Shown here in pieces: positions 47,502-53,221 of a stretch of 64,000 nt of DNA. The number at the start of each line of letters is the position of its first letter. Positions within the stretch are counted from its first letter, which is position 1. Made by a program: the position numbers and the translations under genes. Source of the stretch: Cognataquiflexum nitidum (GTDB lineage: Bacteria > Bacteroidota > Bacteroidia > Cytophagales > Cyclobacteriaceae); the NCBI RefSeq assembly GCF_022538055.1, contig NZ_JAKZAM010000006.1:62001-126000 (forward strand), in the 5' to 3' direction. The notes under the pieces are model-generated. The model had not been told where the DNA came from, did no database searches, and worked only from the letters and a program-made list of their open reading frames with translations.

Positions 47502-47777
47502 TGGTAGTTATCCCAAATCGGGTCATTATTCCAATATCCAAATAATATTTTGTACAAACATTAAAATTAAATTAAGATTTCTCCTTAATGGCTGATGAAA
47601 TGATAATTAAACTCCTGATTCTTTCAAATAACAGCAAAACATTTTTGCATTTCGGGAAATTGTACTTAAGATTGCCGCATCAAAAAAAAGCATTCTATGT
47701 TTTTCACAGCAAATGAACTCAACAATTGGAATCTCTCCCCTTCCGGAGAAAGCTGTGTTTTGGGTGGATCTACTTCC

Positions 47778-47810
47778 ATGTTTTTTACAACCACCACTAT
47801 TACGGGGTAA
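47778..47810 (+). CDS. thrL: Threonine operon leader peptide
   Basis: ATG 47778 to TAA 47808 encodes MFFTTTTITG. Five of ten residues are Thr, with Ile between, exactly the type of leader used in the thr attenuator of E. coli (ThrL has runs of Thr and Ile). Ribosome stalling at these codons when threonyl- or isoleucyl-tRNA is scarce would control the thrABC transcript. The stop codon sits in the loop of a hairpin. The sequence is clear; the function is inferred from position, composition and the known paradigm. Confidence 0.8.
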   Translation: MFFTTTTITG

Positions 47811-47862
47811 TCCCGTTTCCAAATCCATATAGACCCCTTATCTTTAGGTCCATTTTGGACCT
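47802..47862 (+). promoter_or_regulatory. Attenuator stems after the thr leader
   Basis: Three stems can form: ACGGG/CCCGT at 47802-47816 spanning the leader stop; GGGGT (47804-47808) with ACCCC (47833-47837); and AGGTCC/GGACCT at 47846-47862, whose left arm could instead pair with GACC at 47832-47835. The options exclude each other, as in attenuation. The last stem lacks a following T run, so termination versus blocked ribosome entry is unclear. Confidence 0.55.
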
Positions 47863-47904
47863 CGACAGCATAGTATATACGCCAAAATCAAAAAATTCAT
47901 TTTT

Positions 47905-50358
47905 ATGAAAATCTTAAAATTCGGAGGATCGTCAGTCGCCAATCAGGAAAATATCCGGAAGGTGTTTCAGATCATTAAGAAACAGGCCAAAAAGGATGAA
48001 ATCGCAGTTGTTTTTTCTGCTTTGGGAGGCGTCACGGAAGTTTTGCTCCGAAGTGCCATCAAAGCCCGCGAAGGTGACAAATCCTACACCGACGAGATCA
48101 AGGTTTTGGAAGACCGGCATTATGATTTGGTCAGACAACTAATTCCCATTCAGCAGCAATCCACCGTCCTTACTTATGTGAAAGTCCGCTTCAATGAATT
48201 GGAGGATCTTTTTCACGGTATTTACCTGATCAAAGAATGTTCCCCCAAGACCTTGGATTATGTGGGAAGTTTTGGAGAAAGGCTGTCGGCTTTTGTGTTG
48301 GCGGAAGCCTTGAAAGTCGAAGGTTTAGATACCCACTACCTGGATGCGCGAGATGTTATCCGAACCAATAACCGTTTTGGCAATGCCAAGGTTGACTTTC
48401 CTGTCACCAATGACCTGATCCAGGATTACTTCCATTCCCATCCGGGGATGAAAATTATTACGGGTTTTGTGGCCTCAACTGAAAAAGGGGAAACCACCAC
48501 ACTAGGTAGAAGCGGTTCGGATTATACCGCCGCGATTTTTGCGTCAGCCCTTACGGCAGATCTGCTGGAAATCTGGACAGATGTGTCCGGCGTGATGACT
48601 TCGGATCCAAGGCTCGTGTATTCAGCTTTTACCATTCCCCAGTTGACATACAACGAGGCTATGGAGCTTTCCCACTTTGGGGCAAAAGTAATTTTCCCTG
48701 CCACCATGCAGCCTGCGATGCGGAAGGGAATTCCGATTTACATCAAAAACACCTTTGAACCCGAGCACCCGGGAACCTTGATCAACAGTGACGCACCAAC
48801 TGGAAAACTGATCAAGGGAATTTCTTCTTTGGCAGGAATATCCTTGCTTAATATTCAGGGCGCAGGATTGATTGAAGTTGTCGGTGTTAGCCGAAGGGTA
48901 TTTGGAGCTTTGGCAGATGCAGGAGTCAATGTTATCCTCATCAGTCAGGCTTCTTCAGAACATAGCATCTGTGTGGCCATCCGAACCCATGAAGTGCATC
49001 TTGCCAAGGAAGCTATAGAAAAGGAATTTATCAACGAAATCCGAAATGCGGAGATGGATCCTGTGATCGTGGTTTCGGAGATGGCCGTAGTAGCTGCTGT
49101 GGGAGAAAATATGAAACACAATCCCGGTGCGAGTGGCAGGATGTTTATGGCTTTGGGCAGAAACAATGTTAACGTATATGCCATTGCCCAGGGAAGTTCA
49201 GAATTGAATATCTCTGCGGTAGTCTCCCAAGCCGATCTTCAAAAAGCACTCAATGCACTCCATGAGGCATTTTTCCTTTCGGAAAACAAAGTTTTGCACG
49301 TCTTTTTAATAGGCGTCGGATTGATCGGAAAGGCTTTGATCAAAATGATTTCCCTGCAGAGAAAGAAGCTTCAGAAAGAAAACGATTTGGATGTGCAGAT
49401 CCACGGCATTGCCAATTCAAGATTCATGGCTTTCCATGAAGATGGCTTTGACTTGGCCAATTGCCCGGCGCCTGAAGACGCCAAAGGTGCACAGCCGATG
49501 GATTTGAAAAAATTTATTACGCAGATGGAGGACATGAATTTCTCCAATACGGTTTTTGTGGATTGTACAGCAAGTCAGGAAGTGGCAGATACCTACGAGC
49601 AAGTTTTGGAAGCCAAAGTGGCCATCGTTACTCCAAACAAAAAAGCCAACTCAGGGTCTTTGGAGAATTACAAATCCCTGAAAAAACTCGCCTACAAGCG
49701 GGGAGTGAAGTTTCTTTATGAAACTAATGTGGCTGCAGGCCTCCCGGTCATCAACACCCTACAAGACTTGATGCTCAGCGGAGACAAAGTCCTTAGAATA
49801 GAAGCGGTCTTGAGCGGATCGATGAATTATATTTTCAGTGAATTGGAAAAAGGAGCTCCTTTTTCCGAAGTGGTCAAAATTGCCAAGGAAAAAGGTTACA
49901 CCGAACCGGATCCAAGGGATGATTTGAGTGGCATGGATGTGGGTAGAAAAATCCTGATTTTGGGAAGGGAAGCCGAGCAGGACCTGCATTTTGAGGACAT
50001 TACTATTCAAAGTATGGTACCGGAAGATTGCAGGGAAACAGCCTCAATAGAAGAGTTTTTTGTCAAACTCCAAGCGCACGATGGTGAGTTTGCCCAAATG
50101 CTGGAAACCGCAAAATCCAAAGGCGAGAAACTTAGGTTTATGGCCACTTTGGAAAACGGCAAAGCAAAAGTGGGTTTGAATTCTCTTGACAGCACGCATC
50201 CTTTCTTTACTTTGAAAGGATCTGACAATATGATTTTGTTTACCACCGAGCGCTACCATGACTTCCCGATGATCATCAGAGGTCCGGGTGCAGGGGCAGA
50301 TGTGACCGCAGCCGGAGTATTTGCAGATGTGATACGCTTGGGTAATTTCTCCAGATAA
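47905..50358 (+). CDS. thrA: Bifunctional aspartokinase/homoserine dehydrogenase
   Basis: The 817-residue fusion catalyses the first and third steps from aspartate to homoserine. The N-terminal kinase has KFGGSSV and GRSGSDYTAAIFA, then two ACT domains near residues 310-450 for allosteric control (probably by threonine). The C-terminal dehydrogenase shows GVGLIGKALI for NAD(P), ETNVAAGLPVI and KGYTEPDPRDDLSGMDVGRK. It leads the thr operon; its TAA overlaps the thrB ATG by one base (TAATG), so the pair is translationally coupled. Confidence 0.96.
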   Translation: MKILKFGGSSVANQENIRKVFQIIKKQAKKDEIAVVFSALGGVTEVLLRSAIKAREGDKSYTDEIKVLEDRHYDLVRQLIPIQQQSTVLTYVKVRFNELEDLFHGIYLIKECSPKTLDYVGSFGERLSAFVLAEALKVEGLDTHYLDARDVIRTNNRFGNAKVDFPVTNDLIQDYFHSHPGMKIITGFVASTEKGETTTLGRSGSDYTAAIFASALTADLLEIWTDVSGVMTSDPRLVYSAFTIPQLTYNEAMELSHFGAKVIFPATMQPAMRKGIPIYIKNTFEPEHPGTLINSDAPTGKLIKGISSLAGISLLNIQGAGLIEVVGVSRRVFGALADAGVNVILISQASSEHSICVAIRTHEVHLAKEAIEKEFINEIRNAEMDPVIVVSEMAVVAAVGENMKHNPGASGRMFMALGRNNVNVYAIAQGSSELNISAVVSQADLQKALNALHEAFFLSENKVLHVFLIGVGLIGKALIKMISLQRKKLQKENDLDVQIHGIANSRFMAFHEDGFDLANCPAPEDAKGAQPMDLKKFITQMEDMNFSNTVFVDCTASQEVADTYEQVLEAKVAIVTPNKKANSGSLENYKSLKKLAYKRGVKFLYETNVAAGLPVINTLQDLMLSGDKVLRIEAVLSGSMNYIFSELEKGAPFSEVVKIAKEKGYTEPDPRDDLSGMDVGRKILILGREAEQDLHFEDITIQSMVPEDCRETASIEEFFVKLQAHDGEFAQMLETAKSKGEKLRFMATLENGKAKVGLNSLDSTHPFFTLKGSDNMILFTTERYHDFPMIIRGPGAGADVTAAGVFADVIRLGNFSR

Positions 50359-51287
50359 TGGTACGGGTCGTTACAGCTTTCGCCCCGGCAACTGTCGCCA
50401 ATGTGTCCTGCGGATTTGATATCCTGGGATTTGCCATCGATAGATTGGGCGACAAGGTGACAGTGTCTTTCAATCAGGATGGGATATTGAGAGTGATAGG
50501 TATCGAAGGAGATGGGGGAAAACTTCCATTGGAGCCAGAGAAAAATACCTGTTCTGTAGCCATTCAGTCCATGCTCAACAAGCTTGGTTCGAATCAGGGC
50601 ATTGATATTTTCCTGGAAAAAGGATTGCCGCTAGGTTCAGGAATGGGTTCCTCGGCTGCAAGTGCGGCAGCGGCATTGGAAGCTGCGAATGTGCTTTTGG
50701 GCAATCCATTTACCAAAGAAGGGTTGGTTCCTTTTGCAATGGAATCAGAACGGATCGCCTGCGGTTCAGCCCATGCGGACAATGTTGCGCCTTCTATCTT
50801 GGGCGGTTTTGTGTTGATCAGGGATTATGATCCATTGGATATTGTGAAGCTTCCGGTTCCCGAAGGCATTTTCTGTACCTTGGTACATCCCCATATTGAA
50901 TTGAAAACATCCGATTCGAGAAGTGTGCTGCGCAAGCAGATTTCTTTAAAAGAGTCCGTGATGCAATCCGGAAATATTGCCGGGTTTATAGCGGCACTGT
51001 ATAAGTCAGACTTGGCTTTGCTGAGCCGTTCATTGAAAGATGTCATCGCCGAGCCTTCCCGTGCATTGCTGATTCCGGGATTTTATGAATTGCGGGATGC
51101 CATCAAGTCCATCGGGGCTTTGGGTTCGGGAATCTCAGGTTCAGGACCGACCATATTTGTCCTTTCTCCAAATGGGGACATAGCACATGAGGCAGGTGAA
51201 AAAGCCAAAGAAGTATTCCAAAAAATCGGCCTTGGCGTCGATGTATTTGTGTCGGAAGTGAATAAGCGGGGAGCTTTTGTTGTGTAG
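50358..51287 (+). CDS. thrB: Homoserine kinase
   Basis: ThrB phosphorylates homoserine with ATP. The 309-residue GHMP-family protein has the ATP loop GLPLGSGMGSSAASAAAAL and the substrate-end motif GSGISGSGPTIF near the C terminus. Translation is coupled to thrA. After it, 614 bases of repeats separate thrC, so thrC may be on the same transcript or use its own promoter. Confidence 0.95.
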   Translation: MVRVVTAFAPATVANVSCGFDILGFAIDRLGDKVTVSFNQDGILRVIGIEGDGGKLPLEPEKNTCSVAIQSMLNKLGSNQGIDIFLEKGLPLGSGMGSSAASAAAALEAANVLLGNPFTKEGLVPFAMESERIACGSAHADNVAPSILGGFVLIRDYDPLDIVKLPVPEGIFCTLVHPHIELKTSDSRSVLRKQISLKESVMQSGNIAGFIAALYKSDLALLSRSLKDVIAEPSRALLIPGFYELRDAIKSIGALGSGISGSGPTIFVLSPNGDIAHEAGEKAKEVFQKIGLGVDVFVSEVNKRGAFVV

Positions 51288-51901
51288 GAGATGTGAGATT
51301 AGAACCGAGAGACGAGAAGCGAGATGCGAGAGACGAGAGACAATAAATTCAGAATGATGAATTCGAAATGAAGAATGACTGGACTCGACAACAATACAAC
51401 TCTTCCAACCCGAAAACTCGATAACCTGACAACGCGAAGCAGATAAAAATTACAACTACTACAACAATTATAACCAAGAGATTCTTCGCTACACTCAGAA
51501 TGACGGATCCACAACCCGACAACCTGACAACGCGAAGCAGATAACAAATACAACAATTAAAACCAAAAATAGAGGTTCTTCTCCAATACAGCGGACAGGA
51601 TCACTACTAATGACAGAATTGAAAATTCGCCCTTCGACAAGCTCAGGGAACGGGAATTTTGTGATCTTAAAGGGGAGGAGGGAAAAGCGGCGCAGCCGCT
51701 TTTCCCTCCTCCCCTAGCGCCCAATTAACCCCGGTGGCTGAGCTTGTCGAAGCCAAAACTACAATCAATATAACCGATAGAACTTGACATCCCGAAAGCT
51801 CGACAACCTGACAACACGAAACAGACAACAATTACAACCATTGCAACATTTACAATCCATCAACCTTCCAACCTTGTAACTTTTCAACCTTTTAACCAGA
51901 T
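51288..51901. other. Repeat-filled gap between thrB and thrC
   Basis: The 614 bases hold no gene. They contain the gagacgagaagcgag minisatellite (51298-51344), three copies of a motif like acctgacaacgcgaagcagat (near 51436, 51524 and 51805), the CTTCGCTACACTCAGAATGACG arm (51479-51506), a long compound palindrome (51632-51752) and a tail of caaccttccaacc-type sequence before thrC. No thrC promoter box was recognised. Confidence 0.7.
51632..51752. repeat. Compound inverted repeat with 21-bp perfect hairpin
   Basis: Outer arms CTTCGACAAGCTCAG (51632-51646) and CTGAGCTTGTCGAAG (51738-51752) enclose an inner perfect hairpin with 21-base arms at 51671-51691 and 51695-51715 and the loop gca. The inner stem is GGGGAGGAGGG-rich. 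No transposase is nearby. It is the strongest hairpin seen in the window. Confidence 0.85.
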
Positions 51902-53221
51902 ATGAAATTCTACAGCACCAACAACCCCCGCCATATAGTCAGCCTCAAAGATGCCGTGGTCAAAGGACTTGCTCCGGATCAGGGATTGTATATGCCTACG
52001 GAAATTCCGGTTTTGTCAAAGGCTTTTTTTGAGAACTTGCCGAATATGTCTTTCCGGGAAATTGGTTATGAAGTGATCGGAGCGCTTTTCAGTGGTGATT
52101 TGACCAAGGATCAGATCAAAGAATTGGTGGACCATACCTTGGCTTTTGATGCGCCATTGGTAAAAGTGGAAGAGGATGTCTATGCCTTGGAACTGTTTCA
52201 CGGCCCTACATTAGCATTCAAGGATTTTGGGGCGAGGTTTTGCTCCAAGTTGATGGCAATCCTGATGGAAGGGGAAGAAAGGAAAATCCGGGTTTTGGTG
52301 GCGACATCCGGTGATACGGGAAGTGCTGTTGCCAATGGGTTTTTTAAAGTAGAAGGAGTCGAGGTCATTGTCCTGTATCCAAAGGGGAAAGTGAGCAAAT
52401 TGCAGGAAATGCAGTTTACCACTTTGGGAGAAAACGTGACCGCCCTTGAGGTGGATGGTGTGTTTGATGATTGTCAGACTTTGGTGAAGCAGGCTTTCTC
52501 CGATGCCGAACTCAACCAAAAAATGCTCCTGACTTCCGCCAATTCGATCAATGTGGCAAGGTGGATTCCACAATGTCTGTATTATTTCTATGCCTTTTCC
52601 CGACTTCCAAAGAGTAATAAAAAATTGGCGATCTCCGTTCCAAGTGGGAATTTTGGAAATCTCGGAGCAGGGATTTTGGCTGAGAGAATGGGTTTGCCGA
52701 TAGACACTTTTATCGCTTCCACCAATGTGAACCGGGTTGTACCGGATTTTTTGGAGGGAAATCCTTTTCAATCCAAGCCTTCCGTGGCCACCATCAGCAA
52801 CAGCATGGATGTGGGTAATCCGAGCAACTTTTCTAGGCTTTTGGCGCTGTATGGCAATGATGAAAAACTGTTCCGCAGTAAAGTAAAAGGTTTCTATTTT
52901 GACAATCAGGATACCCAGAGAGCCATGGTCCAAATCAAAGAAGAAACGGGATATATCATGGATCCACACGGTGCTGTGGGGTATTTGGGTTTGAGGAATT
53001 ACATGAAAATGAATCCCGGTGAATATGTCGGGGTTTTCCTGGAAACCGCCCATCCAGCTAAATTCAAATCCGTCGTGGACGATACCTTGGGCATTGATTT
53101 ACCTATCCCAGAAAGATTGATGGAATTTATGAAAGGTGAAAAACAAGTGATCCAGATGGGAAATAGTTTTGGGGAGTTTAAGAGTTGTTTAACCACAGAT
53201 TTCGCAGATGGACACAGATAA
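51902..53221 (+). CDS. thrC: Threonine synthase
   Basis: ThrC converts phosphohomoserine to threonine with PLP. The 439-residue protein has the Schiff-base lysine K107 in LAFKDFGARF and the phosphate-binding TSGDTGSAVANG and SVPSGNFGNLGAG. The last nine residues, TTDFADGHR, are unusual: they are encoded by an intergenic repeat (aaccacagatttcgcagatgg) that also occurs outside genes. The ancestral stop was probably earlier. It completes the thr operon, though separated from thrB by repeats. Confidence 0.95.
   Translation: MKFYSTNNPRHIVSLKDAVVKGLAPDQGLYMPTEIPVLSKAFFENLPNMSFREIGYEVIGALFSGDLTKDQIKELVDHTLAFDAPLVKVEEDVYALELFHGPTLAFKDFGARFCSKLMAILMEGEERKIRVLVATSGDTGSAVANGFFKVEGVEVIVLYPKGKVSKLQEMQFTTLGENVTALEVDGVFDDCQTLVKQAFSDAELNQKMLLTSANSINVARWIPQCLYYFYAFSRLPKSNKKLAISVPSGNFGNLGAGILAERMGLPIDTFIASTNVNRVVPDFLEGNPFQSKPSVATISNSMDVGNPSNFSRLLALYGNDEKLFRSKVKGFYFDNQDTQRAMVQIKEETGYIMDPHGAVGYLGLRNYMKMNPGEYVGVFLETAHPAKFKSVVDDTLGIDLPIPERLMEFMKGEKQVIQMGNSFGEFKSCLTTDFADGHR

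Follow-up and report, generated by a model that had tools for sequence, protein, structure and literature searches.

Comparative sequence analysis suggests leader-peptide attenuation with a stop-codon hairpin upstream of thrABC in Cognataquiflexum nitidum

The thrABC operon of Cognataquiflexum nitidum is preceded by a leader that we interpret, with a probability of about 0.6, as a leader-peptide attenuator, in which the ribosome would sense charged tRNA-Thr and tRNA-Ile and transcription would end before thrA unless the ribosome stalls. The operon lies in a stretch of 64,000 nucleotides, referred to here as the window. Comparison with relatives pointed to a conserved leader with its own promoter, a codon bias at its end, a hairpin around the leader stop codon (HP1), a motif at a set spacing in the window's clade and a second hairpin (D), with neither a conserved antiterminator nor a U-tract in that clade. 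From these features we infer that the leader is translated, that ribosomes stall on it and that the polymerase pauses, as well as where and by which factor transcription ends and in which direction control runs. The features of the locus, all on the forward strand, are as follows.

47644-47647, +: promoter -33 element TTTG, part of TTTG-N19-TAAGATTG, with 9 of 10 consensus positions.
47667-47674, +: promoter -7 element TAAGATTG, consensus TAnnTTTG, matching that of Flavobacterium psychrophilum.
47697-47810, +: thr leader ORF, 37 codons and a stop codon, MFFTANELNNWNLSPSGESCVLGGSTSMFFTTTTITG, a conserved reading frame.
47778-47810, +: ten-codon ORF of the original prediction, the in-frame 3' end of the leader ORF.
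47787-47804, +: control codons ACA ACC ACC ACT ATT ACG (Thr Thr Thr Thr Ile Thr), from the Thr/Ile enrichment before ACG in 95 leaders.
47802-47816, +: HP1, ACGGG(GTAAT)CCCGT, with the leader stop codon within the loop, from Watson-Crick pair counts and folding.
47826-47832, +: CATATAG, candidate RNA polymerase pause site, 10 nt after HP1, from CATAT enrichment.
47832-47837, +: C-box GACCCC, in which the window has the variant ACCC of GCCC.
47846-47862, +: hairpin D, AGGTCCA(TTT)TGGACCT, without a U-tract, from differing complementary arms at the same place in relatives.
47905-50358, +: thrA, fused aspartokinase-homoserine dehydrogenase (Pfam AA_kinase, ACT, NAD_binding_3, Homoserine_dh).
50358-51287, +: thrB, homoserine kinase (GHMP kinase; Pfam GHMP_kinases_N/C), the name being taken from the operon context.
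51902-53221, +: thrC, threonine synthase (Pfam PALP, Thr_synth_N).

The ThrA protein of the window shares 98 to 99% identity with the ThrA proteins of four named species or strains of Aquiflexum and Cognataquiflexum. The spacer between thrB and thrC (51288-51901) is long and contains short repeats, CCTGACAACGCGAAGCAGATAA, and a long palindrome around 51690; with its flanking copies of CTTCGACAAGCTCAGGG and GCTGAGCTTGTCGAAGCC, it resembles a repeat element.

Thr leaders were surveyed in 99 loci, consisting of the window's own, 77 from named genomes and 21 from further relatives, all chosen for a close ThrA, after exclusion of L091 and L109, which lack a ThrA start within the locus. Removal of 11 duplicates and of 10 loci without an ACGGGN-stop core left 78 that keep it. 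Nine of the coreless loci (L086, L093 to L099 and L104) have Ignavibacteriales, Melioribacteraceae, Bacteroidales or Bacteroidia labels, and the tenth (L088), from an Algoriphagus MAG, is apparently one base short. Among 60 loci from deeper in the family the core was present in 18 and absent from 42, and hence it is not universal. Seven of the 42 have a Thr/Ile-rich leader by rule, L187 and L190 were added by eye, and no such leader was recognised in the remaining 33. Collapsing the core-bearing loci, together with L191, on their last 69 nt gave 95 distinct leaders, in four groups with names of our own: c1, the window's clade (n = 25); algo, Algoriphagus and its neighbours (n = 34); chry1 (n = 18); and chry2 (n = 18).

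A covariance model of 25 leaders had matches with an E value below 1e-5 in 12 of 59 genomes, always just upstream of thrA. This model finds near relatives only, since core-bearing genomes such as G019 and G021 score no better than an E value of 0.04. Weaker matches (E values of about 1e-4 to 6e-4) were seen at G055:C48:15332-15400, G014:C1:4474269-4474330 and G035:C1:1011345-1011396, away from the listed thrA matches of those genomes. At the gathering score, Rfam 15 detected no family in the window and none in 12 loci tested, including the trp loci L280 and L284. When matches to the 361 bases at 47600-47960 were accepted up to an E value of 10, seven were obtained, all to unrelated families, with Thr_leader not among them.

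The original prediction placed a ten-codon leader 95 nt upstream of thrA. The codons ATG TTT TTT ACA ACC ACC ACT ATT ACG GGG TAA are indeed present, and the distance from the leader stop codon to the thrA ATG (47905) is 94 nt. As a unit, the ten-codon frame was rejected because its inner ATG is missing in some relatives that keep the long ORF (L034, Aquiflexum lacus; L040; and L110); it is the tail of the 37-codon ORF that starts at the ATG at 47697. A length of 35 to 41 codons was found in 66 of the 84 leaders with an in-frame ATG. No in-frame ATG was found in the other 11 of the 95 leaders, which likely use other start codons. The Bacteroidota-type promoter TTTG-N19-TAAGATTG ends 22 nt before the ATG of the long ORF. 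Of the 59 leaders tested in the two nearest groups, 57, the window's among them, match 9 of 10 consensus positions 16 to 22 nt before the ATG, a score reached by mononucleotide shuffles in 2.8% of cases on average. TAnnTTTG is given as the promoter consensus of F. psychrophilum in the available text of one study (PMC9723704).

The end of the leader is crowded with threonine and isoleucine codons. The codon before the last ACG encodes Thr or Ile in 95/95 leaders, that at position -2 in 83/95 and that at position -3 in 89/95, against a background at codons -16 to -25 of the same 95 leaders of about 9% Thr and 6% Ile. Comparison of the relatives' leaders bore out the conservation of the Thr codons, and this crowding supported the proposal that Thr and Ile are sensed at the leader through the ribosome. 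When the codon was left unrestricted in a search of 164 upstream regions, the last Thr codon was ACG in 96/96 Thr-Gly-stop ends, while ACG makes up only 67 of the 589 other Thr codons in the leaders. The fixed ACG, mostly followed by GGG, therefore indicates a constraint on the RNA, or on codon choice, at the leader end. By comparison of relatives, the conserved leader with its Thr/Ile codons and promoter appears to be the short ORF expected of a ribosome-mediated attenuator.

The last control codon forms the start of HP1. A count of Watson-Crick pairs within a fixed short span replaced a longest-stem count with G-U pairs, which was not discriminating. At least four pairs were found in 81 of 95 leaders versus 17.0 expected, with values per group of 25/25 versus 3.3 in c1, 34/34 versus 7.0 in algo, 5/18 versus 1.7 in chry1 and 17/18 versus 5.0 in chry2. 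No covariation of the HP1 arms was detected inside the window's clade. Arms of differing sequence, with the stop codon in the loop, were found in more distant thr leaders, as in L017 and L018 (CATGCCC/GGGCATG), L025 (CAACCCT/GGGGTTG), L188 (ACCCC/GGGGT) and L206 (CAACCC/GGGTTG); in L207 (TACCCC/GGGGTA) and L214 (ACCCC/GGGGT) the stop codon overlaps both loop and stem. In the eight classical thr leaders measured, the last Thr codon is 7 to 11 residues before the stop codon, whereas here the control codons adjoin HP1. A stalled ribosome reaches about 15 nt from its P site, and with the control codons abutting HP1 it would therefore cover the 5' arm. HP1 extends over the final codons and the stop codon of the leader, and this geometry suggests that its formation would depend on the position of the ribosome.

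HP1 is followed by a sequence motif. Of the 95 leaders, 36 have CATAT between +17 and +50 versus 7.9 expected, and in 33 of them it lies at +22 to +26. The distance from HP1 to CATA is 9 to 12 nt in 22/25 leaders of the window's clade. CATA was present in only 4 of 34 leaders of the algo group, being missing in 30, and in 15/18 chry1 and 12/18 chry2 leaders, of which none and 5, respectively, have it at 9 to 12 nt. Among 57 Thr/Ile leaders, a set that was not de-duplicated, an HP1 with a dG of -3 or lower was combined with CATA or ATAT starting 7 to 14 nt on in 27 versus 2.3 expected (20/34 with ACGGG and 7/23 without). In hairpin-stabilised pauses, as reviewed in one paper (PMC12288461), the hairpin precedes the paused 3' end by 10 to 13 nt. 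As the spacing agrees with this range, we read HP1-CATAT as a putative polymerase pause signal. The C-box motif GCCC was found in 50/95 leaders versus 20.8 expected and is common to his leaders. The combination ACATATMGCCC occurred in 30 of 330 fetched loci, redundant copies included, once in each; 29 of the 30 directly follow an HP1, in 11 cases that of a thr leader and in 18 that of a his leader, the exception being L255. As a genome-wide attenuator signal CATATMGCCC was rejected: of its 21 matches in the window's own genome, versus 4 in a reversed control, 20 fall within ORFs longer than 300 nt and only that in the his leader does not.

This his leader (L220, C83), upstream of hisG in the same genome, consists of MSSKTSYSVSFSICTILGGDNHLHHSS, a stop-codon hairpin and CATATCGCCC, and near relatives show strong conservation of the 107 nt that lie between its stop codon and hisG. 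It resembles the thr leader in having a stop-codon hairpin, CATAT 9 to 10 nt later, GCCC and a covarying hairpin without a U-tract, and differs from it in having His codons, post-stop RNA that is not C-rich relative to G, and an HP1 of unrelated sequence (TTCCTCC-TAA-GGAGGAA). CATAT is 9 nt on in the window's genome and 10 nt in most relatives. Leaders before hisG in this genome and its relatives end in HHxHHSS-stop with this or a similar hairpin, followed by CATAT, GCCC and a covarying hairpin without a U-run; the pattern used to find them was matched by 24 of 61 fetched hisG loci, of which 21 are distinct. Exact CATAT was present in 16 of the 21, 9 nt (in one) or 10 nt after HP1, the spacings being read from printed sequences; four others have one-base variants, and the Algoriphagus his leader has CACAC. 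Immediately ahead of the hisG ATG, L220, L266 and relatives have a conserved TATATTG/TATATTTG that looks like a second promoter, which would give an almost leaderless mRNA that bypasses the attenuator.

Classical attenuators occur at the same operons in relatives and at other operons of the window's genome, with the same kinds of control codons and with the leader upstream of the first gene. The trp (L284, C20; WWW) and ilv (L233, C17; Ile/Leu/Val codons) leaders of this genome have U-tract terminators. Both also have ACATAT between leader stop codon and terminator, a placement seen in 4 of 10 fetched trp loci, all of the window's genus. Among relatives, a classical terminator was found in nine thr leaders (L019, L030, L168, L190, L202, L203, L205, L210 and L212) and in his leaders L292, L294, L297, L301 and L304 to L307. 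When 20 his upstream regions were classified by reading, 8 were classical, 6 had a stop-codon hairpin and 6 had neither. Seven genomes (G019, G021, G090, G099, G109, G118 and G119) combine a stop-codon hairpin before thr with a classical attenuator before his. That either design serves the thr and his operons argues that the stop-codon hairpin design is an attenuator. More tentatively, and with considerable doubt, we suggest a Bacteroidota class of attenuators without terminator or antiterminator, in which HP1 would halt the polymerase at CATAT and Rho or another factor would end transcription, and which, with different hairpins and codons, would serve both thr and his and would have traded places with classical attenuators.

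The mechanism that we propose for the window starts with transcription from the promoter at 47644-47674, giving an RNA that encodes the 37-codon leader, whose last Thr/Ile codons would adjoin the 5' arm of HP1 or form part of it, with the stop codon in the loop. When Thr or Ile is short, the ribosome would stall and cover this arm, HP1 would be blocked and the polymerase would read on through thrA. With Thr in good supply, the ribosome would complete the leader and leave, HP1 would form and the polymerase would pause near CATAT, about 10 nt downstream, after which transcription would mostly end before thrA with the help of Rho or hairpin D. Attenuation would thus probably act on RNA polymerase, and the assignment of the final step to Rho or D is our inference. 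The C/G ratio of the RNA was 1.68 to 2.93 in thr leaders of this type, 1.11 in his and 0.87 in seven classical thr leaders; the C-rich, G-poor composition of thr agrees with the suggested involvement of Rho, and that of his does not.

Hairpin D is supported by many different complementary arms at a nearly constant position. It exceeded shuffles at 0.05 in 18/25 c1, 23/34 algo and 12/18 chry1 leaders and did not do so as a group in chry2 (3/18). Comparison of the relatives' stems gave covariation for D and none for the HP1 arms in the window's clade. The absence of a T-run after the final stem, which ends at 47862, was confirmed. T content after D in the window's clade was at background (2.56 of 8 versus 2.70 expected), a terminator scan found no terminator in the window, and the intrinsic terminator of a classical attenuator was found neither in the window nor in its clade. 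The step that stops transcription would therefore have no visible site there. In the algo group the tail is T-richer (3.56 of 8), with a T-run of at least 4 within 10 nt of D in 14/34 leaders and TTTTT right after D in 4/34 (L057, L061, L070 and L092), and D may be a weak terminator in this group. Minimum free energy folds of 30 leaders, inspected by eye, had D formed in nearly all, whether or not the ribosome-covered start was masked; D alone is therefore not a thermodynamic switch. In one group of relatives (L100, L131, L135 to L137, L141 and L144), D has a three-base loop of CAG or AAG closed by C-G on differing stems, with GA on the 3' side (AGGA, Shine-Dalgarno-like), possibly a binding site.

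That D is not followed by a U-tract in the window's clade would also fit translational attenuation, a reading that we consider unlikely, in which translation of the leader controls access of ribosomes to the thrA start, with D or the region after it masking or exposing that start, and transcription is not stopped. The original prediction had raised control of the translation start as an example, and the position of D, 35 to 43 nt before thrA in 23/25 leaders of the window's clade, fits this, as does a weak hairpin 11 to 14 nt before thrA in 11/18 chry1 leaders. It became less likely on comparison of distances. The leader stop codon is 170 to 239 nt from thrA in 10 of 78 leaders and 71 to 111 nt in the other 68, and in those ten, all of the Algoriphagus clade, D is 126 to 194 nt from thrA. 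On the assumption that control survives such long insertions, it is easier to explain at the level of transcription. Furthermore, the 3' arm of HP1 has no conserved pairing downstream and the leader end has little, and relatives have terminator attenuators at the same operons.

Nine of the ten long spacers carry a copy of a dispersed repeat that starts ATGAAATCGAGCATGAC. The exact 14-nt start of the repeat lies between D and thrA in L050, L051, L056, L062, L065, L066, L069 and L106; L107 has it with one mismatch, L127 has a further variant, and L090 has it elsewhere in the locus. In several, as read by eye, a short open frame (MKSSM..ARFHV) is present. A search of seven Algoriphagus genomes for a 20-nt version, allowing up to 2 mismatches, gave 14 to 26 copies per genome in six, two of which are probably one genome, and 3 copies in G107, versus 0 or 1 in the control.

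A classical four-segment attenuator, with a pause stem, an antiterminator and a terminator and with D as a weak intrinsic terminator, appears improbable. Such a reading draws on the placement of the stop codon, which lies in the first hairpin's loop as it does in segment 1:2 of the trp attenuator, on the stability and covariation of D and on the T-runs of the algo group. Alternative pairings (A:C or C:D) can also be drawn, and in the window HP1 can be set against a pairing of ACGGGG with the downstream C-box. However, the complementarity of the leader end to downstream RNA was near chance over all groups of the hairpin type (mean z of -0.37 to -0.87 by group; 11/95 at 0.05), with a slight rise in c1, the clade of the window (mean z of -0.87; 4/25). 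In classical attenuators of Bacteroidota, used as a positive control, the mean z was -2.02 and 14/25 rows were beyond shuffles at 0.05, a control of limited power in that 11 rows fell short of this level, some of the rows are closely related and one row with a wrong anchor (his_L305) was kept in the count. No excess of downstream pairing was found for the 3' arm of HP1, its mean z being positive in every thr group and in his. Across the 95 leaders, examined with this control, no conserved and mutually exclusive antiterminator was found. The mutually exclusive stems of the original prediction were thus not upheld as a conserved feature, and its classic arrangement of alternative stems failed on the same ground and on the background T content after D in the window's clade.

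Two specific switches were rejected. The ACGGGG:C-box pairing had at first seemed to covary with the stop codon; pairing of the HP1 5' arm downstream was scarcely beyond shuffles (8/95 thr and 5/21 his leaders at 0.05), and the switch was discarded on this ground and because his leaders have the C-box without a G-run. An antiterminator formed by the C-box and the 5' arm of D was beyond shuffles at 0.05 in 0/95 thr leaders.

It is very improbable that the leader acts by its peptide sequence, as a nascent-chain arrest signal or a small protein, and not by codon starvation; ORF length and an Ile-Thr-Gly end are conserved, but the N-terminal two thirds of the peptide diverge strongly between genera, and the constraint on the end is on the choice of codons, and so on the RNA. 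A chance ORF without function can be given practically no weight: the single-sequence fold is no more stable than shuffles (z of -0.18), but comparison of relatives contradicts this reading, since the frame is conserved with its promoter, codon choice and hairpins, and the covariance model had one strong match in its own genome (E value of 9.2e-20; window 47799-47864), upstream of thrA, with the next at 0.5.

The preferred reading, an attenuator with a stop-codon hairpin, can be set beside known systems. The enterobacterial thr leader (the thrL attenuator, Rfam Thr_leader) has a short Thr/Ile-rich ORF before thrA with hairpins after it, the position of the ribosome being the sensor. The leader described here shares the short Thr/Ile-rich ORF before thrA and the hairpins that follow, and differs in having no match to Thr_leader, no U-tract terminator, no conserved antiterminator and control codons that abut a stop-codon hairpin. 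Surveys of attenuators have reportedly been made by Vitreschak in 2004 and by Lopatovskaya in 2010. As of 2010, by the accessible text of PMC2965389, leader-peptide systems had been shown only in Proteobacteria and Actinobacteria, the atypical ermC leader aside, and Bacilli were then added. Two further sources mention strong indications of leader-peptide attenuation ahead of amino-acid operons in F. psychrophilum (PMC9723704) and sORFs reminiscent of leader peptides in Bacteroides thetaiotaomicron (PMC7366714). The Bacteroid-trp motif (RF01692) is presented in the accessible text of PMC2864571 as a candidate cis-regulatory RNA of Bacteroidetes, tied to trp by its name; it was not among the Rfam matches at the gathering score in the 12 loci tested, trp loci included. 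Among the papers listed in searches on attenuation and leader peptides, which covered few subscription papers, none on the stop-codon hairpin design was found.

Leader-peptide attenuation is the textbook mechanism of terminator and antiterminator, and both were not found here. The leader, its control codons and the stop-codon hairpin are nevertheless kept over many genera and for two operons. If the proposed mechanism is correct, the position of the ribosome would directly control a pause of the polymerase, and the leader would point to a pause motif for the RNA polymerase of Bacteroidota. The thr and his loci would then provide a natural series of cases in which two attenuator designs have replaced each other ahead of the same gene.
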